Source: an uncultured Alphaproteobacteria bacterium
GTDB lineage: Bacteria > Pseudomonadota > Alphaproteobacteria > RF32 > CAG-239
Length of the DNA stretch: 35,961 nucleotides
Direction of reading: 5' to 3'
NCBI GenBank assembly: GCA_944391725.1
Contig: CALXUQ010000015.1
Location: forward strand, 1 to 35,961
Position 1 is the first letter of the stretch; every line of letters begins with the position of its first letter. The notes under the pieces were generated by a model that was not told the DNA's origin, did no database searches, and worked only from the letters and a program-made list of their open reading frames with translations. Shown here piece after piece: positions 1 to 35,961 of the stretch. Made by a program: the position numbers and the translations under genes.

Positions 1-37
1 AAGGAGTTTTTTATCTGTAAAGCTGTAAGCTCTTTGG

Positions 38-67
38 AACTACCGGCCTAGCCGGTAGTTTTCTTGT
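38..67 (+). terminator. Intrinsic terminator for a gene left of the window
   Basis: A perfect 10-bp stem (38-47 with 51-60) closes a 3-base CTA loop and is followed by a T-rich tract (TTCTTGTT). The T tract lies on the plus-strand 3' side, so it would stop a plus-strand transcript entering from outside the window. No coding sequence is visible in 1-37. Confidence 0.6.
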
Positions 68-70
68 TAC

Positions 71-98
71 AAAAAACCGACGAGTTGATACCCGTCGG
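71..98 (-). terminator. Intrinsic terminator of the accA-rmuC operon
   Basis: On the minus strand a 6-7 bp stem (CCGACG with CGTCGG, 77-98) is followed immediately by six T residues (71-76). It lies about 20 bases beyond the rmuC stop codon, so it is well placed to end the accA-rmuC transcript. With the hairpin at 38-60 it separates two converging transcripts. Confidence 0.75.
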
Positions 99-7188: not shown

Positions 7189-9177
7189 TTAGATATCCAA
7201 GTCATCAACAAATTTGGCGCGTTCAATGATAAACTTGAAGCGCAATTCCGGATTTTTGCCCATGAGGCGTTCAACCTGACGGCGGGTTTCAAAGGCTTCT
7301 TCTTTGCCTTCTTCGGTGGCCGCAGAGGGAACCAAAACTTTTAGCAAAGTACGGTTTTTCTTGTCCATGGTGGTTTCTTTAAGCTGCTGAGCACTCATCT
7401 CGCCTAACCCCTTAAACCGACTGATATCAGGTTTTTGATTGCCTTTGACCACTTTTTTCAATATGCGGTCTTTGTCTTCATCGTCTTGGGCATAGTAGTT
7501 ATTGCCGCCGACCACGATTTTATACAGCGGCGGGGTGGCAATATACAAGTGTCCGTTCTCAATGAGTTTGGGCATTTGTTGATAGAAAAAGGTCATGAGC
7601 AAAGAGGCAATATGCGCACCATCGACATCGGCATCGGTCATAATAATGATTTTTTCATAGCGCAGATTGTCTTCATTATAGTGGTCCTTAACTCCGCAAC
7701 CTAAAGCCTCAATCATATCTTTTATTTCTTGGTTTTGGGTGATTTTATCAAGACTGGCGGAAGCCACGTTTAAAATCTTGCCGCGCAGAGGCAAAATGGC
7801 TTGGGTGACGCGGTCGCGCCCCATTTTGGCCGAACCACCTGCGGAATCGCCCTCAACAATAAAGATTTCGGTATTTTCGGCCGCAGCCTGAGAACAGTCG
7901 GCCAATTTGCCGGGCAGGCGCAATTTTTTGGTCGGAGTTTTGCGGGTTTGGGCTTTTTCTTCTTTCTTTTTGCGGCGGCTTTCGGCACGCTCAATCACAT
8001 AATCAAGCAAAGCTGAGGCGTTCTCAACATCGGAGGTCAGCCAGTGGTCAAAAGAATCTTTAACCGCTTGTTCCACCAAACGAACTGCTTTGGCTGAGGT
8101 GAGTTTATCTTTGGTTTGGCCTTGGAACTGCGGGTCGCGGATAAAAACCGAAAGCATAATACAGGCATCGCTCAAAAAGTCCTCAGCCGTGATACCGGCG
8201 GCTTTTTTAACATTAGCCATTTCGCCATATTCTTTAAGGCCGCGTATCAGTGCCGACTTAAAGCCCATTTCGTGCGTACCGCCTTGAGGAGTAATCACGG
8301 TATTGCAGTATGAATAGCAAAAACCGTTTTCGTCTTCGGGCCAGGTGATAGCCCATTCGACGCGTCCCTCATCATTGGCCAATTCGGCATCACCGGTAAA
8401 AGATTTGCGGTTAATGGTGGTGCGGTTACCGACCTGATAGTTCAAAAAATCGCTCAAACCATTAGGGAAAATCAGTTCGGCTTCCAGCGGAGTGGTATCA
8501 CCTTCCGATAAAACTTCGGGAGCGCATTTCCACAAGATTTTAATGCCCTTAAACAAAAAAGCTTTGGAACGGGCCATACGATAAATCTTGTTGGGATTAA
8601 AAGTCGAGTTAGCACCAAAAATTTCGGCATCGGGATGGAAAGTGATTGATGTACCGCGGCGGTTGGGAGCATTGCCAATCTGCTCTAGTGCGGTTAGCGG
8701 TTTGCCTCTAGAATATTCTTGGCGATAAAGTTTTTTATCACGGGCAATTTCGACCACCAAGCGGTCTGACAAAGCATTAACCACCGAGAGCCCCACACCG
8801 TGCAAACCGCCGGAAACTTTATAAGCGCCACCGCCGAACTTGCCGCCGGAATGGAGCACGGTCATAATCACTTCAAGAGCAGATTTGCCGGGGTATTTGG
8901 GGTGAGGGTCAACCGGAATACCGCGGCCGTTATCGGTAATGGTGACCGAACCGTCGGCATTGACCTTGACCTCAATATGATTGGCAAAGCCGGCCACGGC
9001 CTCATCCATGGAGTTGTCCAAAATCTCGGCAACCAAGTGGTGCAGAGCCTGCTCATCGATACCGCCGATATACATTCCCGGGCGGTGACGCACCGGTTCC
9101 AAACCTTCCAAAACCTCAATATCTTGCGCCGAATATTCCTTGATTGCCGGCGCGGTACTCTCAAACAAATCGCTCAT
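7189..9177 (-). CDS. parE: DNA topoisomerase IV subunit B (ParE)
   Basis: A 662-residue type IIA topoisomerase ATPase subunit. The GHKL ATP-binding region has EILDNSMDEA, DNGRGIP and GGLHGVG. The TOPRIM region has EGDSAGGSAKMGRDR and DADVDGAHI, whose acidic residues bind Mg2+. ParE with ParC decatenates daughter chromosomes. The length (about 660, not about 800) and MYIGGIDEQALHHLVAEILD favour ParE over GyrB. I start at the ATG at 9177, which has GAGGAA 5-6 bases upstream; an in-frame extension to 9219 has no ribosome site and would run across the promoter and likely transcription start. parC is not in the window. Confidence 0.88.
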   Translation of the reverse strand: MSDLFESTAPAIKEYSAQDIEVLEGLEPVRHRPGMYIGGIDEQALHHLVAEILDNSMDEAVAGFANHIEVKVNADGSVTITDNGRGIPVDPHPKYPGKSALEVIMTVLHSGGKFGGGAYKVSGGLHGVGLSVVNALSDRLVVEIARDKKLYRQEYSRGKPLTALEQIGNAPNRRGTSITFHPDAEIFGANSTFNPNKIYRMARSKAFLFKGIKILWKCAPEVLSEGDTTPLEAELIFPNGLSDFLNYQVGNRTTINRKSFTGDAELANDEGRVEWAITWPEDENGFCYSYCNTVITPQGGTHEMGFKSALIRGLKEYGEMANVKKAAGITAEDFLSDACIMLSVFIRDPQFQGQTKDKLTSAKAVRLVEQAVKDSFDHWLTSDVENASALLDYVIERAESRRKKKEEKAQTRKTPTKKLRLPGKLADCSQAAAENTEIFIVEGDSAGGSAKMGRDRVTQAILPLRGKILNVASASLDKITQNQEIKDMIEALGCGVKDHYNEDNLRYEKIIIMTDADVDGAHIASLLMTFFYQQMPKLIENGHLYIATPPLYKIVVGGNNYYAQDDEDKDRILKKVVKGNQKPDISRFKGLGEMSAQQLKETTMDKKNRTLLKVLVPSAATEEGKEEAFETRRQVERLMGKNPELRFKFIIERAKFVDDLDI

Positions 9178-22596: not shown

Positions 22597-23121
22597 TTAA
22601 AATCCTTTCACGCAGCGCGGATAGAACATATTCCTGTTTTGGGCATCAGTAGAAAAACCATACTTATTAAGATATGTGATTCCATAACCACGAGATTCTA
22701 TCCAATACCAACTATCTGCCAAAAGTTCCTGACCAGTAGGCAGAGTTTTAAGTTTGGCATTTAAGGTCGCAAATTTGGTATTGCTGACGCCGTTAATCCG
22801 CTCATTACCCATACGGAGAATTTCCATGGCATTTGGGAGTTTCCATTCCCCCTTTTTAGTACCTAAAGTCACATAACTATTACAATAGGATTGAGCTGAA
22901 ACGTAAGTCATGGCAGCGGGTTGGTCTAAAGTCATAATATAACCATGGTCGCGCCGAGCTGAAACCCAATACACTAACCCGACCGGAACTTTATCATCAC
23001 GAACGGTTTTATCAAAGGTGCCATCATGATAAAAGACATCTCCGACTTCCACCGCATAAGCATAATTTACTCCACTAAAAATAGCGGCAGTTATAGTTAA
23101 GATGGTTAAAATATGTTTCAT
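22597..23121 (-). CDS. Secreted DUF1566/Lcl_C-like protein, short form
   Basis: A 174-residue protein with a signal peptide of about 22 residues (ending near YAYA). The mature part starts VEVGDVFYHDGTF and continues with VPVGLVYWVS, HGYIMTLDQPA, a paired-Cys region and GEWKLPNAMEI. The GxWxLPxxxEI core resembles the DUF1566/Lcl_C domain (usually DWRLPT-x-x-EL). It ends RCVKGF. It lacks the N-terminal Cys half-module of its neighbour at 23133. The ATG has a GGAGAAC site. It is the last gene of the operon starting at 25863, 11 bases after the previous stop. Related short forms are at 26133 and 26689. Function is unknown; cell-surface or secreted localisation is inferred. Confidence 0.78.
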   Translation of the reverse strand: MKHILTILTITAAIFSGVNYAYAVEVGDVFYHDGTFDKTVRDDKVPVGLVYWVSARRDHGYIMTLDQPAAMTYVSAQSYCNSYVTLGTKKGEWKLPNAMEILRMGNERINGVSNTKFATLNAKLKTLPTGQELLADSWYWIESRGYGITYLNKYGFSTDAQNRNMFYPRCVKGF

Positions 23122-23132
23122 CTTTGTTCTCC

Positions 23133-23954
23133 TTAAAAATCTGCCACACAGCGGAAATTGTTGTAATAATTTTTATAGTTGGCATTACTATGTTTAAAAT
23201 TTTCATGTATGTGAGGTAGTATATTATTTATATTAGTGGTATAATTATCCGTACTTGACCATGGAGAAAGGGAATATGATAACCTTGAACCGGCTTGGCA
23301 ATTACTTCCTACATGAGTATGTTTAGTACAGTAGCTATGGTAAGAACTATTGTACCCCAAAAGAGCAGAATATACATATTCTAGTGTATCTCCTTGAGGA
23401 ACCAGACCTAAATAGTTATTAAACTGATTGAAGGTATAATTAGGATTGGCATTGGAATACATCCATACCTCACCGGCGCTCGGTAAATGCCAATCTCCGG
23501 ATTTAGTACCTTGAGTAGAATAACCATTGCAATAGATATTGGCTTCATCTCGTGTCATCGGTAAGGGGGCGTCAATAGCTAAAACTAAGCCATGATTTTT
23601 CTTACCGTTTGGGTGAACATAAACCACTATCCCTATCGGGAGTTTATTGGCATTATAGCTGGCAGCGGTCGAACCATCTGAGTACACAATGTGACCAACG
23701 GCAATCTCGTTTTTGAACACAAAATCTACATTTTCGGCAGAAACGCAAAACATTTTGCTTTGGTCAAAAGGACAACGCATTCCGCCATCGGGACATTGGT
23801 CAATAGATTTGGTATAGCCAAGCGAAGCACAATCCGGTGCCGCCGTGCAGGTGATGGTTGAGGTTTGGGCTAAGCCGCCGTGCGGTAGTATAAACATAAG
23901 CCCACCTGCGGCAATCGGGCCATATTTGAGAGCCCAAAAAGTTATTTTATTCAT
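23133..23954 (-). CDS. Secreted Cys-module plus DUF1566-like protein
   Basis: A 273-residue protein with a signal peptide (about 29 residues, ending GGLA). Next is one Cys half-module: C-x4-DCASLGY, then C-x5-RCPFDQSKMFC (about residues 36-71), the same pattern that ends the giant protein encoded just upstream. Then comes the DUF1566-like domain with IVYSDGSTAASY, LPIGIVVYVHPNGKKNHGL, YCNGYSTQGTKSGDWHLPS and a variable Tyr/Ser/His-rich segment. It ends RCVADF. AGGAGAAAG precedes the ATG. It is the middle gene of the operon 25863 to 22597. Its close relatives are the genes at 27250 and 28261. Binding or adhesion is a guess from the architecture. Confidence 0.78.
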   Translation of the reverse strand: MNKITFWALKYGPIAAGGLMFILPHGGLAQTSTITCTAAPDCASLGYTKSIDQCPDGGMRCPFDQSKMFCVSAENVDFVFKNEIAVGHIVYSDGSTAASYNANKLPIGIVVYVHPNGKKNHGLVLAIDAPLPMTRDEANIYCNGYSTQGTKSGDWHLPSAGEVWMYSNANPNYTFNQFNNYLGLVPQGDTLEYVYSALLGYNSSYHSYCTKHTHVGSNCQAGSRLSYSLSPWSSTDNYTTNINNILPHIHENFKHSNANYKNYYNNFRCVADF

Positions 23955-24021
23955 TTTTCTTTCTCCTGTTGGTATATTTTAATGCGGAATGTTGGGTTGT
24001 TTTCTCCTTGGGTTGAGATTG

Positions 24022-25863
24022 TTAGTTGGCACACATAATCCAATTGGTGTCATAGGGGCATTTGAGGATATTCTTATTGACACAGTTAAAATCCCACAAT
24101 TGGTAGCCAAGCTTTTGGCAATCTGTTTCGGGGGTGGTGCAATAATATTCATATTTGCCGGCGCAGGCATAGGGACAATATGTGCCGGAGCAAGCATCTT
24201 GAGTGCATAGTGCACCGGCCGGACAACTGGTGTTGCCTTCACAGGCGTTGGGGCATTCTTGACATTGACTATAAAATGTACCTTCTGGGGTTTGGCAGCT
24301 TTGTGCATTTGAGGCACCGCCATACGGACAATCTAAAAAACCTTCACAAAGATTGGGGACACCATCATAATAGACTTTGCCGCAACATTCGCATTTGTCG
24401 GTTTGAGTGTAGCCGGCCAGCAAACTGCCCTCAAAAGGAAGTTCTTTGCAATGACGACAACAATCGCCGGTGTCTTTATCAACACACATTACCCAGGCGG
24501 TATCGTAGGGACAATGCAAGATATCTTTGCCTTCACAATAAAAATCCGGCAAAATATAACCTAAATCTTGACAATCGGTATGGGGGACCGTGCAATAGTT
24601 TTTATAATTGGTTTGGCAGGCATAAGGGCAATAGGTGCCGGAGCAGGCATCTTTGTTACAGAGTGCGCCCGATGGACAAGTGGTGTTGCCGGGGCAGGCA
24701 TTGGGACACTCTTTGCAGGTGGAATAAAGAGTTTTGGTGCCGCTCAGACAATTGGTGGAACCATCTGCTCCGCCAAAGGGGCATTCTGAAAAACCTTCGC
24801 AGGGGTCTTCTTTGACTTTGTAAAACACCTTTTCGCAACAACGGCAGGTCTCAGTGGCCACATAGCCGGGTTTGACACTTTCTTCGGGATAATCCTCACA
24901 AATTTTGCAACAGCTGCCGTCATCGGGCAAACAGTATACAAGCTGGTCATTGTAGGGGCATTTGATGGTTTCGGCGCCGGGGCAATCCGTTGGAACTTGG
25001 GTATAGCCTAAGGTTTCGCAATCGGTGCTATCCGGAGCTTGGCAAAAGTATTTATAACCGACTTCGCAGGCATAGGGGTCGCAGTAACGCCAGGTGCAGG
25101 CTTCATATTCGCACAGCGCATTTTCCGGACAGGTTTCGTTGGAGCATTTCGCCTCGCAGCGTTTGCACTTGTCACACTTAACCACACCAAAAGAAATACA
25201 GGTTTTGGCATCGGGCGCACAACCATCTTGACAATCCCAAAAACCTTCGCATGCATTGAAATCTCCGGAGGCGGCAATGTATTTGGTTCCGTTACAGCTC
25301 TCGCAAGAGGCCACGGCAGTCTTATCTCCTAATTCATCTTTACTGACGAAACCGGGGCAGGTATTGCAGCAGTGCCCAAACTCATCAGAAAGAGAACAAT
25401 GGTCGTTGGGGTCAATTACCCAGCCGGCATCGCAGGTAGAAACATAGGTCGGGTCTTCGGCCAGACAGGCTTCTTCCAAGTCGAGCTGGCACTCTTTGTA
25501 CATTTCCTCCCCGTTGGGACATTTGTTGAAAAGCTCGGTCGGAGGTTCGCACTCGGTGATGATGTAGTCGTTAATGGTGCACCAGGCTTTGTTGTTGCAC
25601 TTGATATAATTGGAATTGTAAGGGCAGAACTCAATAATGGAATATTGATGACAGACGCGGTTTTGGTAACTTTCATAGCCTTCGGATTTGCATTTTTCGG
25701 CGTCTTGGTTGGTATCGGGGGTGGCGGTTTTGTCACCGCAGTCAGGCAAAAAACAAATGGAACTTTGGGCCGGAGTAGAAATTGCAACAGATAAAATCAC
25801 TCCAAGCAACAGGCCGGGCGATATGACAAAAAAACTCAATCTGCTTTTGAGCTGGGCAAACAT
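24022..25863 (-). CDS. Giant secreted cysteine-rich repeat protein, copy 1
   Basis: A 613-residue protein with about 80 cysteines by my count. A signal peptide ends near TPAQSS. The body is a tandem module of about 150 residues. Its order is: TDC-x2-LGY, then a C-x-CPYD-x4-C stretch, CC-x2-C, GY-x7-C-x-CC, C-GF-x2-C-P-GG, ECPNAC-GNT-CP-GALC and DACSGTYCPYAC. The last two modules are clearest; the protein ends on a half-module (LGY ... ILKCPYDTNWIMCAN). Many CxxC pairs suggest disulfides or metal binding. I start at the ATG at 25863, which has GGAGAAAG upstream; a longer frame to 25893 would run through that site. First gene of a three-gene operon. I know no named family for it. Confidence 0.8.
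   Translation of the reverse strand: MFAQLKSRLSFFVISPGLLLGVILSVAISTPAQSSICFLPDCGDKTATPDTNQDAEKCKSEGYESYQNRVCHQYSIIEFCPYNSNYIKCNNKAWCTINDYIITECEPPTELFNKCPNGEEMYKECQLDLEEACLAEDPTYVSTCDAGWVIDPNDHCSLSDEFGHCCNTCPGFVSKDELGDKTAVASCESCNGTKYIAASGDFNACEGFWDCQDGCAPDAKTCISFGVVKCDKCKRCEAKCSNETCPENALCEYEACTWRYCDPYACEVGYKYFCQAPDSTDCETLGYTQVPTDCPGAETIKCPYNDQLVYCLPDDGSCCKICEDYPEESVKPGYVATETCRCCEKVFYKVKEDPCEGFSECPFGGADGSTNCLSGTKTLYSTCKECPNACPGNTTCPSGALCNKDACSGTYCPYACQTNYKNYCTVPHTDCQDLGYILPDFYCEGKDILHCPYDTAWVMCVDKDTGDCCRHCKELPFEGSLLAGYTQTDKCECCGKVYYDGVPNLCEGFLDCPYGGASNAQSCQTPEGTFYSQCQECPNACEGNTSCPAGALCTQDACSGTYCPYACAGKYEYYCTTPETDCQKLGYQLWDFNCVNKNILKCPYDTNWIMCAN
25226..25774 (-). repeat. Duplicated coding segment, copy 1
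   Basis: 549 bases encoding the N-terminal region of the giant Cys-rich protein match 30280-30828 with no indel and about 41 substitutions by eye (about 93% identity). Outside it the two genes diverge quickly while keeping the Cys pattern. Confidence 0.85.
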
Positions 25864-25871
25864 AATTTTCT

Positions 25872-26018
25872 TTCTCCGATAGTCCATAGACAAAAATACT
25901 AAATCATCACATTTTATCCGTAAGTTAGGTTACACGACTCTATTCATTAGTATATAATAAAATAATTTTCCAAAATTTGCAATAATTAATTAGCTTACCC
26001 TAATGTTATTTGTCCAAT
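25872..26018 (-). repeat. 147-bp promoter/leader repeat, copy 1
   Basis: Matches 30924-31070 at 146 of 147 positions (the single difference is C at 25933 against T at 30985). It covers the promoter, the 5' untranslated leader and the start of the ribosome site of the first operon. Confidence 0.95.
25954..25982 (-). promoter_or_regulatory. Promoter of the 25863-22597 operon
   Basis: On the minus strand TTGCAA (25977-25982) and TATTAT (25954-25959) are exactly 17 bases apart. Transcription would start near 25947 and leave a leader of about 84 bases. Confidence 0.65.
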
Positions 26019-26050
26019 TGTTAAAGAAAACAGCTAATTAAACTTTGTAT

Positions 26051-26095
26051 AAAAAAGAACACTCCGCAGAATGCTATCGCTATCCTACGGAGTGT
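26051..26095 (-). terminator. Terminator of the 30917-26133 operon
   Basis: On the minus strand ACACTCCG (26088-26095) pairs with CGGAGTGT (26059-26066), with extra pairing in the 21-base loop, then a T-rich tract TTCTTTTTT ends near 26051. It lies about 38 bases after the stop at 26133 and just before the next promoter. Confidence 0.82.
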
Positions 26096-26132
26096 CGGAG
26101 AAAGAAGACATAATAATACTTTTTACCCAAAC

Positions 26133-26675
26133 TTAAAATGCGGTAATGCAACGGACACCATAGCTGGCTGCCGCTCCTTGTGCCGTGCCTCCACCTCCAG
26201 TAATTCTACCGGTAGCCGGATTGAATGCGTAAGGATAACTGGAGTTGGCAACGTAGTTTTTACTGCTAAGCTTGGTTGCAGCCTTACCATCAGCCTTAGT
26301 TACTCGCCCCAATATGTTGTTCATAGCTGTATAATTATCGGTTGTCGTACCGTTAACTCTATACTTACCCATACGAATTAACTCAATTCTCTGCGGAAGC
26401 TTCCAATCCCCAGCTAATGTGCCTTCTGTATAGTATTCCAAACAATACACATTAGCATTAAAAACATTCATGTTACTTGAGGCTTCATCTAAGGCCATAA
26501 TGTAGCCAAAGTCTTTGTTAGGAGAAACCCAATAAACTAAGCCTATCGCCTGCTTACCAGATTGCATGCTACTGGAAAATGTCTTATCGCTGAAATATAT
26601 ATCACCAACTTCAACTGCACTTGCATTGCGACAAACTAATATGGAAAGAAGAAAAATTGTAAAAAATATCTTCAT
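26133..26675 (-). CDS. Secreted DUF1566-like protein, short form, tandem copy 2
   Basis: A 180-residue protein with a signal peptide (about 20 residues, ending ASA). The mature protein begins VEVGDIYFSDKTF, followed by QAIGLVYWVSPNKDFGYIMA, a Cys near YCLEYYTEGTLAGDW, KLPQRIELIRMGKYRVNG and a Gly-rich segment (GGGGTAQG). It ends RCITAF. It is a close tandem paralogue of the next gene upstream (26689-27234), with long identical DNA stretches. I start at 26675 (MKIFF), which has AAAGGG upstream and gives a clean signal peptide; an extension to 26753 would overlap the neighbouring gene. Last gene of the five-gene operon. Function unknown. Confidence 0.78.
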   Translation of the reverse strand: MKIFFTIFLLSILVCRNASAVEVGDIYFSDKTFSSSMQSGKQAIGLVYWVSPNKDFGYIMALDEASSNMNVFNANVYCLEYYTEGTLAGDWKLPQRIELIRMGKYRVNGTTTDNYTAMNNILGRVTKADGKAATKLSSKNYVANSSYPYAFNPATGRITGGGGTAQGAAASYGVRCITAF

Positions 26676-26688
26676 AGCTAAACCCTTT

Positions 26689-27234
26689 CTAAAATGCTGT
26701 AATACAACGAACGGAATATTTGGTGCCAGATGCTTGGGTATTTCCACCACCACCGCTAATTACTCCACTGTAAGGATTGAAACAATAGGGCCAAGTGGAG
26801 TTGGCAACATAGCTCTTGTTACCTAGAGTGGTTGCTTTATTTCCGTCAGCTTTGGTTACTTTGCTTAAAATATTGTTCATTGCAGTGTAGTTATCTGTCA
26901 CGGTACCATTAACCTTATATTTGCCCATGCGAATCAACTCAATTCTCTGCGGAAGCTTCCAATCCCCAGCTAGCGTACCTTCAGTATAATATTCCAGACA
27001 ATATACATTGGCATTAAATACATTCATGGTTGTTGTGGGCTCATCTAAAGACATTATGTAGCCAAAGTCTTTATTGGGAGATACCCAATAAACTACACCT
27101 ATGGCTTGCTTGCCTGATTGCATGGTACTAGCAAAAGTCTTATCACTGAAATATATATCGCCAACTTCCGCCGCAGTGGCTCCATGACCACTCCAAAAGG
27201 AAAAAAGTATAATGATAGTGAATATTATTTTCAT
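26689..27234 (-). CDS. Secreted DUF1566-like protein, short form, tandem copy 1
   Basis: A 181-residue protein nearly collinear with the gene at 26133: signal peptide ending near ATAA, then EVGDIYFSDKTFASTMQSGK, AIGVVYWVSPNKDFGYIMSL, GDWKLPQRIELIRMGKYKVN and a Gly-rich loop (SGGGGNTQA), ending RCITAF. The two differ mainly in the signal peptide and in the segment before the C-terminus. They probably arose by tandem duplication and are diverging at the tip of the protein. Stop and next start are 13 bases apart. AAGGAAC precedes the ATG at 27234. The domain call is the same DUF1566/Lcl_C-like inference as for the neighbours. Confidence 0.78.
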   Translation of the reverse strand: MKIIFTIIILFSFWSGHGATAAEVGDIYFSDKTFASTMQSGKQAIGVVYWVSPNKDFGYIMSLDEPTTTMNVFNANVYCLEYYTEGTLAGDWKLPQRIELIRMGKYKVNGTVTDNYTAMNNILSKVTKADGNKATTLGNKSYVANSTWPYCFNPYSGVISGGGGNTQASGTKYSVRCITAF

Positions 27235-27249
27235 GATTAGTTCCTTTCG

Positions 27250-28245
27250 TTAGAATATGGCAACACAGCGAAAATGACCTTTTTGTGCGTTGGATGTTGT
27301 TATCTGGTTGATTTGATGTAAGTCAGCAACATACGGCTGATTACCACTCGGATTATCCGAAGCACTCCAATAGGAAGAACTATAATAAAACGGATATCCG
27401 CTGGTAAGAAGATAAGCATATGAAGTTGCTCCATATACATTAACACATCCTGGCGCCGGATTATAATCAGCACGATACTTATACCAACTACCACTAGATG
27501 AATCTATCAAAGGATACCAATTATTAGCATAGCCGCCAATATTGAGGTAGTTAGTTGGATAAGAAGGACTTGATGTAAAATAATTGTTATAGCTTCCGTT
27601 AGGACAGGTTATACCGCTCACGTCACAATCAACCCAAAGATAAGCATTGCTATCTTTGCATTGTCGAGAATAGTAATAGCTAAAAGATACTCCGAGCGCT
27701 TGAGCTCCGGGAATGGTAGATAACAGCGTGTTTAATGTGGTGAACTGAGTGGAATTATCAATGGTATCGCCATTTTGCATGGTGCTGATTTCACCAATGT
27801 CAGCTAAGTGCCAATCTCCAACTTTAGTACCCTTTGTGGTATAGTTAGCACAATATTTAATGGCAAAATCACGACTTTGTACAGAGGGCTGCTCTAAAGA
27901 CATTATTAGGCCGTGGTTGTTTTGAGCGTTGGGATGAACATAGGTAATAATCCCTATCGCATCTTTGGTCGGATCATAGTAGGTTCCCGTTGAGCCATCA
28001 GAAAAAACCACCTGATTTTGATAAATATTATTTTTGAAGCGAAAATCTTCTCCACCAAAACCTGAAACACAAAACATTTTGCTCTTATCAAATGGGCAGC
28101 GAATTCCGCCTTTGGGACATTCAGACTGAGTATAGCCTAAGGTTTCACAATCGGGAGAAGCCGTGCAGGTGATCTCTTCAGCTAGTGCTGAATAACTCAA
28201 CATTGAAACCGAAGTTAAAAAGCTAAGATAAAGTATTTTTTTCAT
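27250..28245 (-). CDS. Secreted Cys-module plus DUF1566-like protein, long form
   Basis: A 331-residue protein with a signal peptide (about 22 residues, ending ALA). One Cys half-module follows: CTASPDCETLGYTQSECP, then RCPFDKSKMFC. The DUF1566-like domain has NQVVFSDGSTG, AIGIITYVHPNAQNNHGLI, KYCANYTTKGTKVGDWHLAD and an unusually long Tyr/Ser/Asn-rich insert (about residues 190-300) with four to five extra Cys. It ends RCVAIF. The insert is where it differs most from 23133 and 28261, so it is the likely variable or binding face. AAGGAGA precedes the ATG. Third gene of the operon. Confidence 0.78.
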   Translation of the reverse strand: MKKILYLSFLTSVSMLSYSALAEEITCTASPDCETLGYTQSECPKGGIRCPFDKSKMFCVSGFGGEDFRFKNNIYQNQVVFSDGSTGTYYDPTKDAIGIITYVHPNAQNNHGLIMSLEQPSVQSRDFAIKYCANYTTKGTKVGDWHLADIGEISTMQNGDTIDNSTQFTTLNTLLSTIPGAQALGVSFSYYYSRQCKDSNAYLWVDCDVSGITCPNGSYNNYFTSSPSYPTNYLNIGGYANNWYPLIDSSSGSWYKYRADYNPAPGCVNVYGATSYAYLLTSGYPFYYSSSYWSASDNPSGNQPYVADLHQINQITTSNAQKGHFRCVAIF

Positions 28246-28260
28246 ATTCGGTCTCCTTGA

Positions 28261-29085
28261 TTAAAATAAAGCTACACAGCGAAACTGCATTTTCTTAGTG
28301 GCCGCAACCGACGTTAAACCGCTGGAGCTGTTGATACTACTTATGTAAGCATTCGAAGCACTATCCAATGTTTGCCCAGATGAAACAAAATTCGGCGTAA
28401 TAAACCAAGTAGTTACCCTTCTACTATAAAAGAATGTATGACTAGCAAAACTACCTTGCACAGCTTGAGAATTTGAAATATCTATACCACCAGATATCAA
28501 TGAGTTATTATAGTAAAATGAGAAGGAATATTCTAAATCCCCCGCAGTGGGAATGGTTTTAAGAACATCGCGATAGGCTGTATATTCATTGGCATCGTTA
28601 AAGGTATCTCCTGCGCTCATGGTGGAAATCTCGGCTAAATCAGGCAAGTGCCAATCCCCAGCCATAGTCCCGGCAGTAGTATAAGCTGCACAGATTTTTT
28701 GAGCTTCAGACTGATTTTGAATAGTGAATGTTTTTAGCGACATCATCAAGCCGTGCTTTTTACTCTTGGTAGGGTGAACATAGGTCACAATTCCTATCGG
28801 TATTTTATCGCTATTATAAAATTTTCCGGTAGTGCCATCGGCGTAAACAATGTGATAGCGGTTAATTGCATTTGCATAAGAAAAGTTTGAGGATACTCCG
28901 TCGCGGATGCAGAACATTTTGTTGGAATCAAATGGACATTTAATACCTCCCTTGGGACAGTTGGTATTAATATAACCGAGGTCGTCACAGCTCGGTGCAG
29001 CCGTACAAGTAAGCGCTAAAACATCTCGGCAATGAGAAATTAAAACTAAACCGCTTAATATGCTATAATAAATAAATTTGCTCAT
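28261..29085 (-). CDS. Secreted Cys-module plus DUF1566-like protein
   Basis: A 274-residue protein. Signal peptide of about 24 residues (ending near DVLA), then a Cys half-module (CTAAPSCDDLGYINTNCP, then KCPFDSNKMFC). The DUF1566-like domain has HIVYADGTTGKFYNSDKIP, IGIVTYVHPTKSKKHGLMMS, AAYTTAGTMAGDWHLPDLAE and a variable Ser/Tyr-rich segment, ending RCVALF. I start at the ATG at 29085, which has GGAGAAAG upstream; the longer frame to 29112 starts inside the previous gene and would put Arg/Lys residues before the signal peptide. It follows the giant Cys-rich protein by 17 bases, as its relative 23133 follows the other giant protein. Confidence 0.78.
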   Translation of the reverse strand: MSKFIYYSILSGLVLISHCRDVLALTCTAAPSCDDLGYINTNCPKGGIKCPFDSNKMFCIRDGVSSNFSYANAINRYHIVYADGTTGKFYNSDKIPIGIVTYVHPTKSKKHGLMMSLKTFTIQNQSEAQKICAAYTTAGTMAGDWHLPDLAEISTMSAGDTFNDANEYTAYRDVLKTIPTAGDLEYSFSFYYNNSLISGGIDISNSQAVQGSFASHTFFYSRRVTTWFITPNFVSSGQTLDSASNAYISSINSSSGLTSVAATKKMQFRCVALF

Positions 29086-29102
29086 TTTCTTTCTCCTTCT
29101 TC

Positions 29103-30917
29103 TTAGTTGCAAATAACCATACTGGTATCGTAGGGACAGTGCAGAATGTTGGCTCCATCACAGCTTGTTTTGTAGAGATAGTAACCAAGCTCAGCACAGT
29201 CGGTTTCCGGAGTGGTACAATAGTCAACATAATTTATCTCGCAGGCATAGGGGCCAAATGTGCCGGAACAACTGTCGTAATTGCACTTTGCTACCTCCGG
29301 GCAAGATTTGTATTCATATGCATTGGGACAGTCTTTGCATTCTTTATACATAACATCAGTTCCGCTCAAACAACTTTCCGTGGAGGCATAGGCCGGACCT
29401 GAAAGACACTTTTGGTAACCTCGGCAAGGATTGGGGGTAATTTTATATTTTATCACTCCATCAACAATGCAGCGACCGGCTGAGATGTAACCGCTAGGAA
29501 TGCTAAGATAGTGATAGTCATAACAACTGGTGAACCCACCGCAAATCACTTTGTTGACATCGTAGGGACACGGCAAAGTGTTTTGGCCGGAGCACTCGGT
29601 GATATCTTTGTCATAGCCAAGCTCTTCACAAGTTTGGACCGGACGATTGCAATAGTAGGTGTAGCCGGTTTTGCAGCCGACCGGACACTGGGCATCGGAG
29701 CAGGCATCATACTGACAAATGGCACCTTCCGGACAGGTCTTGGTTTCGCAACCGTTGGGACAATATTTGCACGACTTATACCAAAGCTCCGTACCATGCA
29801 GACAGGTATCGTTCTCTGCTCCGGCAGATGGTCCAAAACGACATTTTTGGTAACCGGTGCACTCGGCTTCTTTCAATTTGTAAAATGTATTACCACAACA
29901 GCGGCAAGTTTCAGCTGCTTCATAGCCATTGGGAATTTCTATAGCCTCAAAACCCTCACAAATTCGACAGCAAGTACCATCGTCGGGCAAACAATAGACC
30001 TTGCCATTATCATAAGGACAGAAAACCATGCCGCTACCTTCGCACTGCTCGGGAGTTTGAACATAACCTAACTTGTTGCAATCTGTCTCGGGGGTAACAC
30101 AGAAATATGTCATGTCTACGGCACAGCCGGTAACACAATATCTTTGGGTGCAGTTTTCATATTCGCAAATCGATCCCGCCGGACATTCTTCCAAATCGCA
30201 CCGAGCTTCGCAGCGTTTGCAAACCTTACATTTGGTAACACCAAAAGATACGCAGGTCTCCGAGCCGATTTCGCAGCCGTCTTGACAATCCCAAAAACCT
30301 TCGCAAGCATTGAAATCTCCGGAGGCGGCAATGTATTTGGTGCCATCGCAGCTCTCGCAAGAGGCCACGGCAGTCTTGTCGCCTAACTCTTCTTTGCTGA
30401 TGAAACCGGGGCAAGTATTGCAGCAGTGCCCAAACTCATCAGAAAGAGAACAATGGTCGTTGGGGTCAATTACCCAGCCGGCATCGCAGGTAGAAACATA
30501 GGTCGGGTCTTCGGCCATGCAGGCTTCTTCCATGTTGAGCTTGCATTCTTTGTACATTTCCTCCCCGTTGGGGCATTTATCAAACAGTTCGGTCGGAGGT
30601 TCGCACTCGGTGATGGTGTAGTCGTTGATGGTGCACCAGGCTTTGTTGTTGCATTTGATATAATCGGAATTGTAAGGACAGAACTCAACAATGGAATATT
30701 GATGACAAACACGGTTTTGAAAACTCTCGTAACCTTCGGATTTGCATTTTTCGGCGTCTTGGTTGGTGTTGGGAGTGGCGGTTTTGTCGCCGCAGTCAGG
30801 CAAAAAACAAATGGAACTTTGGGCCGGAAAAGAAAATAAGATAGCAAAAAGTGCTCCAAGCAAGATGCATGGAGAGATGACAAAAAACCTCAAGCGTGTT
30901 TTGAGTAACAAATGCAT
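29103..30917 (-). CDS. Giant secreted cysteine-rich repeat protein, copy 2
   Basis: A 604-residue paralogue of the protein at 24022-25863. The signal peptide is different in its first residues, but from SSICFLPDCGDKTATPNTNQ to CEGFWDCQDGC the two are nearly the same. After that only the Cys framework is shared, with modules such as TDCNKLGY, CPYDNGKVYC, TCCRIC and ETCRCC. A later module has lost part of the pattern (CYDYHYLSIPSGYI replaces a CC-x2-C block). It ends on LGYYLYKTSC ... CPYDTSMVICN. GGAGAAG precedes the ATG at 30917. It is the first gene of the five-gene operon. Surface attachment, matrix or adhesion are open possibilities; I would not choose. Confidence 0.8.
   Translation of the reverse strand: MHLLLKTRLRFFVISPCILLGALFAILFSFPAQSSICFLPDCGDKTATPNTNQDAEKCKSEGYESFQNRVCHQYSIVEFCPYNSDYIKCNNKAWCTINDYTITECEPPTELFDKCPNGEEMYKECKLNMEEACMAEDPTYVSTCDAGWVIDPNDHCSLSDEFGHCCNTCPGFISKEELGDKTAVASCESCDGTKYIAASGDFNACEGFWDCQDGCEIGSETCVSFGVTKCKVCKRCEARCDLEECPAGSICEYENCTQRYCVTGCAVDMTYFCVTPETDCNKLGYVQTPEQCEGSGMVFCPYDNGKVYCLPDDGTCCRICEGFEAIEIPNGYEAAETCRCCGNTFYKLKEAECTGYQKCRFGPSAGAENDTCLHGTELWYKSCKYCPNGCETKTCPEGAICQYDACSDAQCPVGCKTGYTYYCNRPVQTCEELGYDKDITECSGQNTLPCPYDVNKVICGGFTSCYDYHYLSIPSGYISAGRCIVDGVIKYKITPNPCRGYQKCLSGPAYASTESCLSGTDVMYKECKDCPNAYEYKSCPEVAKCNYDSCSGTFGPYACEINYVDYCTTPETDCAELGYYLYKTSCDGANILHCPYDTSMVICN
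30280..30828 (-). repeat. Duplicated coding segment, copy 2
   Basis: Partner of 25226-25774 (offset 5054). About 93% identical by eye over 549 bases with no indel. Confidence 0.85.
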
Positions 30918-30923
30918 TTTTTC

Positions 30924-31070
30924 TTCTCCGATAGTCCATAGACAAAAATACTAAATCATCACATTTTATCCGTAAGTTAGGTTATACGACTCTATTCATT
31001 AGTATATAATAAAATAATTTTCCAAAATTTGCAATAATTAATTAGCTTACCCTAATGTTATTTGTCCAAT
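30924..31070 (-). repeat. 147-bp promoter/leader repeat, copy 2
   Basis: Partner of 25872-26018 (offset 5052), 146 of 147 identical. The repeats are in direct orientation, so recombination between them would remove 5052 bp containing the whole five-gene operon except its promoter. Confidence 0.95.
31006..31034 (-). promoter_or_regulatory. Promoter of the 30917-26133 operon
   Basis: Identical to the other operon promoter: TTGCAA (31029-31034), 17-base spacer, TATTAT (31006-31011) on the minus strand. Confidence 0.65.
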
Positions 31071-35149: not shown

Positions 35150-35892
35150 CTAAAAATAATAAAGCAAAAAGCAAATCAGCAAAAATAATGGTCCCCAATA
35201 GAGAATCGATGATTTTTTAAACTTGGGATCATTTTTGTGACGGGTAGAATCGAGCAACCAAGAAATTTTTTTGGGGTCGGTCATTATCAAAGGTTGACGG
35301 GTACACAAATCTAAGCCGCAGGCACTAAACAAATTGAGCAACTCTTGTTCTTTGACCACCGCAGTTGGAAATTTGTGGTAATCTTGAACAAGATATTCTT
35401 GCCAGGATTCAAACACCTTAATGTCGGGACAATAATCTTGCAGCAGAAACAAAAGCCGTTGCATTTTATAGCCGGCTAAAGTGGTCGGCTCTTTACGATG
35501 AGTAATACAGTCAATGGCAAAATGCTGCAAAGCCGGCGTGGCCGGATACAAATAATCAATATCTGGCAAGCAGATTTTGCCTTGCTCCGTATAGGCAACG
35601 CCATGAAAAACCGACATAAAAACTGATTTTTCAAAAATCAAATATGCAACCAGTTTACTCAAATTTTCTTGAACTTTTCGCGGTAAGCGCGCCGAAAAAT
35701 CATAGGATTTATCAAAACTCAGCCATAGTTCGGAAGCGTTGGTTTTAGACCAATTGACCTCAAAAGATGAACCTTTTTCAAAACCATTGACGTCAGCGGT
35801 AAGCATTTCTAATTCCGAGCCATAAAAGCGCATATCTTCAATGGCATCGGCTCGTTTTTTGAAGAGTTCTACTTGCTCGGCAAGTTCCGGAT
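35150..35892 (-). CDS. Partial protein with C-terminal membrane tail, unknown
   Basis: The 3' part of a gene that runs off the contig: about 247 residues from PELAEQVELFKKRADA to the stop. The protein is soluble-looking until its final 20 residues (LYWGPLFLLICFLLYYF), a hydrophobic segment typical of a C-terminal tail anchor. I see no known motif. The true start is outside the window. An apparent start at 35926 (MTGVQTCALPIY) is a translation of adapter sequence and is not real; the last biological base is 35892. Confidence 0.65.
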
Positions 35893-35961
35893 AGATCGGA
35901 AGAGCACACGTCTGAACTCCAGTCACGTGAAAATCTCGTATGCCGTCTTCTGCTTGAAAAA
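35893..35961 (+). other. Illumina TruSeq adapter contamination
   Basis: From 35893 the sequence is the TruSeq read-1 adapter: AGATCGGAAGAGC and the rest of the 34-base arm to 35926, then a 6-base index GTGAAA (35927-35932), then the flow-cell arm (35933-35956) and five A residues. It is an assembly artefact at the contig end. Confidence 0.99.

Follow-up and report, generated by a model that had tools for sequence, protein, structure and literature searches.

Two operons pairing Cys-rich giant proteins with Lcl_C-like proteins in a small-genome alphaproteobacterium: a probable split-gene branch of a surface-displayed lectin-like family

Eight consecutive minus-strand genes of an uncultured alphaproteobacterium encode very Cys-rich proteins of about 600 residues together with smaller proteins that share parts with them, raising the question of what these proteins do and whether they work together. 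The window analyzed here, a stretch of 35,961 nucleotides, makes up one of the 78 contigs into which a 1.57 Mb genome is assembled; other loci of this genome are designated by C-numbers, the sister species and nearest relative is G006, and a further relative is G055. All eight open reading frames, and the shared parts described by an initial annotation, were confirmed as real at the coordinates given below (all minus strand), with three start codons moved. The genes form two operons of common order: a Cys-rich giant, one or two genes encoding a half-module followed by an Lcl_C-like domain, and genes encoding an Lcl_C-like domain only.

The operon headed by giant 1 (29103–30917; 604 aa; 75 Cys, 74 in the mature protein) starts with a protein composed of an N-domain common to all paralogous loci (30402–30809, residues 37–172), Cys modules, and a half-module at its end (29106–29219). 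Two half-module and Lcl_C-like proteins follow, 28261 (28261–29085; 274 aa, 7 mature Cys) and 27250 (27250–28245; 331 aa, 11 mature Cys), with N-terminal half-modules at 28906–29007 and 28066–28167, respectively, and then the Lcl_C-like-only proteins 26689 (26689–27234; 181 aa) and 26133 (26133–26675; 180 aa), which are 75% identical. Giant 2 (24022–25893; 623 aa if read from a TTG) has an N-domain at 25348–25755, a C-terminal half-module at 24028–24141 and 80 mature Cys, and is followed by 23133 (23133–23954; 273 aa, 9 mature Cys; half-module at 23742–23849) and the Lcl_C-like-only protein 22597 (22597–23121; 174 aa). Proteins 22597, 26133, and 26689 thus contain the C-terminal domain alone, as originally described. 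Signal peptides and an alignment of the upstream sequences make ATG 25863 the likely start of giant 2, ATG 29085 that of 28261, and ATG 26675, rather than GTG 26753, that of 26133. Cysteine makes up 13–14% of the split giants.

The half-module, of ~36 aa with five Cys, is the part common to giants and partners. A profile built from the small proteins alone scores 71–83 bits in 23133, 27250, and 28261 and recovers three copies per giant at 10–26 bits, with a period of ~150 aa; among 693 decoys, either shuffled or reversed, the highest score was 9.1 bits. The weakest giant copy (10 bits, giant 2) is near noise alone, yet lies in register with the other copies, and the earlier proposal of a half-module common to the giants and these three proteins is borne out by matches above the best decoy. 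The half-module ends 0–4 residues from the C-terminus in all eight split giants examined and starts near the mature N-terminus of most partners. Searches of the giant module against Pfam, NCBIfam, PHROGs, and PDB sequences returned no match, and PHROGs and NCBIfam searches with the window proteins gave nothing useful.

Cysteine counts differ in parity between the two kinds of protein. Every block of every giant contains an even number (range 8–50), a pattern that fits oxidized extracellular modules that acquire and lose cysteines pairwise. The mature count is even in 12 of 13 N-domain proteins and odd in one, versus odd in 12 of 13 half-module partners (Fisher p 3e-5, a value inflated by the relatedness of the sequences, which are not independent). 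From the odd counts, each partner probably carries one unpaired cysteine, which may therefore allow disulfide-linked assembly with itself or with another protein; in the giants, where each block is even, no free or matching odd cysteine is evident. Together with Sec-type N-termini, judged by eye, cysteine parity supports the secretion of giants and partners, so that the claim of secreted proteins stands as a prediction that both lines fit.

The initial annotation had named the C-terminal domain as DUF1566/Lcl_C-like, an assignment that holds through intermediates and falls short by direct score: against Pfam Lcl_C (PF07603), the window proteins score 14.2–17.7 bits or give no match, and the curated cut-off of 34.9 is not reached. 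A paralogue in C12 scores 74.8 bits, above that cut-off, a profile–profile comparison (hhalign) gives a link at 98.3% (E 2.6e-14), and a further profile link (E 5.5e-5) leads to PDB 8q4e, an entry named in the paper on the Legionella Lcl adhesin (PMC11162425). These profile links place the window domain in the C-type-lectin-like Lcl_C/DUF1566 superfamily. The C-terminal domain of Legionella Lcl binds sulfated glycosaminoglycans (PMC11162425). Because of the predicted export signals, the Cys-rich modules, the relatives targeted by diversity-generating retroelements (DGRs; see below), and the link to 8q4e, surface ligand binding would best explain the Lcl_C-like proteins.

Paralogous loci show how these parts are combined elsewhere. 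C27, C19, and C14 each contain a full-length giant paralogue and, after it, half-module plus Lcl_C-like and Lcl_C-only genes, and locus L044 of the sister species likewise has the order giant, half-module plus Lcl_C-like, Lcl_C-like; the arrangement with a giant first and a half-module protein second, noted at the outset for the window, therefore holds in both window operons, these three loci, and L044. In C6 and C20, the operon order is present as far as its second part, an N-domain gene being followed by a gene for a half-module, a Cys-repeat, and an Lcl_C-like domain. The fused proteins of C12, C25, and C23 join the N-domain directly to three, four, and six Lcl_C-like domains, respectively, and the profile detected no half-module in them. 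Throughout this genome, half-module plus Lcl_C-like proteins are encoded in tandem with, on the same strand as, and downstream of an N-domain gene (9/9; both window operons, C27, C19, C14, C6, and C20). Pieces of the family in C18 and C24 are cut by contig ends, and two more small-gene clusters of the sister species (L103 and L104) lie at contig ends. The C27 operon ends with an extra Cys-rich protein of 302 aa with a signal-like N-terminus (L026, 822–1730).

Of 126 genomes compared at the family level, 47 match the N-domain profile and 52 the Lcl_C-like profile, and some of them carry large expansions; this species and G006 are the only ones in which the split giant–partner pairing was observed. 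Nor is the pairing universal, since the G055 giant (L101) has no adjoining partner, Lcl_C-only homologues in other genera (L110 and L112) have no giant nearby, and N-domains of genus g12 bear other tails. No N-domain was found in viral contigs, and a scan of named genomes yielded a single relative MAG, CALXTR01. The initial interpretation is thus upheld in part. Its idea of a linked system is supported by tandem order in this genome and in L044, by the fused versions, and by an upstream element that most of the giants share; the linkage was observed in this species and one close relative, and Lcl_C-only homologues outside the genus can stand alone.

This upstream element is a 25-bp block, GGACAAATAACATTAGGGTAAGCTA, located at 31043–31067 before giant 1 and at 25991–26015 before the giant 2 operon. 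It is followed in each case by an identical promoter-like stretch, TTGCAA-17-TATTAT (31006–31034 and 25954–25982, respectively; both consensus matches only). In the upstream alignment, the same succession of block and promoter-like stretch appears at both window operons, C14, C12, C6, C23, and C25, while C27, C19, and C18 have only a diverged form of the element. A genus-wide search found nine copies in this genome and five in G006, and none in a reversed control; nine copies precede N-domain genes and five run off contig ends within ~50–220 bp, these being the only two settings in which the element is located. Copies at contig ends are expected if near-identical N-domains break assembly. As separate observations, the right end of the window (35893–35961) is an Illumina TruSeq adapter, an assembly artefact into which the open reading frame at 35150–35926 runs; window positions 1–76 hold a dispersed repeat with a terminator-like palindrome that is also present at the ends of several other contigs in this genome and in C22 of G006; and L099, ~7464–7780, contains a member of an intergenic repeat family that matches dozens of places in this genome.

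Near-identity of the N-domain is a feature of this genome. Between its loci, the N-domain shows stretches of 90–100% nucleotide identity, with pS of 0 to ~0.25 in several locus pairs; over the later modules, identity in most locus pairs drops to ~50–60%, with pS of ~0.7–0.9. N-domain pS against the sister species is 0.55–0.88. As pS is low within the genome and high against the sister species, these values point to gene conversion, or concerted evolution, of the N-domain inside this genome. In the window genes pN/pS is below 1, and we therefore do not claim diversifying selection; positive selection on the C-termini was considered and found unsupported by pN/pS, though the sites are saturated.

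DUF1566 is a known common target domain of DGRs (PMC4159848), and several fused or split paralogues of this genome appear to bear DGR-type variable repeats. Six domain ends, in C6, C20, C12 (three), and C78, have a common fixed backbone with variable codons between; compared with the templates of the sister species, they share the template backbone, with differences also at non-A bases. After a 3-methyladenine glycosylase gene, G006 carries a DGR made up of Avd, three repeats resembling templates, and a reverse transcriptase whose motifs include IGNLSSQI, which matches IGxxxSQ, and YVDD; the bAvd and RVT_1 profile scores of this cassette are above cut-off. The G006 C2 target differs from template TR2 at 16 of 30 template A positions and at 2 of 81 elsewhere (p 2e-9). 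Other genera have Lcl_C-like genes next to a DGR reverse transcriptase, and there the changes are almost confined to template A positions (A versus non-A, 20/45 vs 0/74, 21/49 vs 0/70, and 17/45 vs 2/71). No reverse transcriptase (RVT_1) was found in the present genome, whose 78 contigs leave absence unproven, nor was a template-like copy found among pattern matches. Here the glycosylase and recA genes are ~200 bp apart, and the DGR site is therefore empty; a DGR copy elsewhere in unassembled DNA is possible. In G055, a related reverse transcriptase adjoins recA, and a half-module open reading frame (L102, 1508–1870) is situated between the two. At L119 (1156–1854; G000:C29) and G000:C7:25306, a DGR-like variable region (WSSSEYSSNNYAWLVNANDGNVINYIKYYYYNVRCVIAF) ends an open reading frame without an evident signal peptide, perhaps an intracellular DGR target. 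As for the window genes, their domain is homologous to DGR targets of this genome, but that they are current DGR targets is highly improbable and was rejected: their 3' ends contain no TR-like nucleotide backbone, synonymous differences there are as saturated as elsewhere, and a search of the genome gave no reverse transcriptase.

We consider it probable that the two operons belong to a surface-displayed, ligand-binding, lectin-like family, of which they would be a split-gene, non-DGR branch. Each operon would make a disulfide-packed, rod-like giant consisting of a near-identical N-domain and repeated Cys modules, and would add at least two small proteins whose C-terminal, C-type-lectin-like Lcl_C domain would bind an outside ligand, for example a host or neighbor surface glycan. 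Elsewhere in the genome, the same N-domain is fused to three to six such domains, some ends of which would have been DGR-diversified. A structural matrix or S-layer-like coat in place of a binding system seems decidedly unlikely: very Cys-rich repeats in many copies would suit a tough coat, but known binders and DGR targets occur among Lcl_C domains, and several loci with divergent C-termini are unlike a uniform one.

How giant and partner might associate is a narrower matter. It is possible, though doubtful, as a more specific version of the reading above, that the partner half-module docks homotypically onto the C-terminal half-module of the giant, perhaps by a disulfide, placing interchangeable lectin tips on a stalk. 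The binding through half-modules originally suggested gains from their position at the giant C-terminus and near the partner N-terminus, from the odd cysteine of the partners, and from the lack of a detected half-module in the fused versions, all of which suit an assembly role; it loses from the even count in each giant block, which offers no matching cysteine, and AlphaFold2 models, of low confidence (pLDDT 43 for a small protein, from seven sequences, and 34 for a giant), lend it no support. Moreover, the half-module ending may simply reflect the order inside each module, and the parity test is inflated by homology. The same odd partner and even giant counts fit pairing between partners, and a tentative alternative is that the small proteins self-assemble, as disulfide dimers or otherwise, the half-module being a common extracellular Cys module and the giants separate surface proteins under shared regulation. 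Lcl_C-only proteins found elsewhere without giants agree with such independence, but the consistent tandem order and the fused versions argue for joint work. A further reading, which we regard as rather unlikely, is that one Cys module is divided between proteins, the giant completing the five-Cys half-module of its partner after export; one homogenized stalk family would then serve many lectin tips, some of them subject to hypermutation by a remotely acting DGR.

Remote DGR targets of the TvpA type in Treponema denticola are lectin-fold surface proteins scattered over the genome, all served by one DGR. To our knowledge, that system has no Cys-rich giant and no split pairs. Its likeness to the present family is the scattering of lectin-fold targets of a single DGR (PMC4891356). 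Variable proteins of DGRs that carry DUF1566/Lcl_C or Fib_succ_major domains (PMC4159848, for example) belong to the same C-terminal lectin-like superfamily, in which variable repeats occur in the sister species and apparently in paralogues of this genome; unlike such proteins, the window genes are untargeted and their domain is delivered by split operons beside Cys-rich giants. The Legionella collagen-like protein Lcl (PDB 8q4e; PMC11162425) is a secreted, elongated adhesin with a C-terminal DUF1566 domain, but its collagen-like stalk is not Cys-rich, its C-terminal domain lacks disulfides, and it is encoded by a single gene.

The window thus introduces an unannotated Cys-rich gene family tied to DGR-diversified lectin-like proteins in small-genome alphaproteobacteria. 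The empty DGR site near recA, together with the variable repeats that remain, offers a natural case for comparing how a DGR is gained or lost, and because this genome contains both fused and split versions, the relation between giant and partner is testable.
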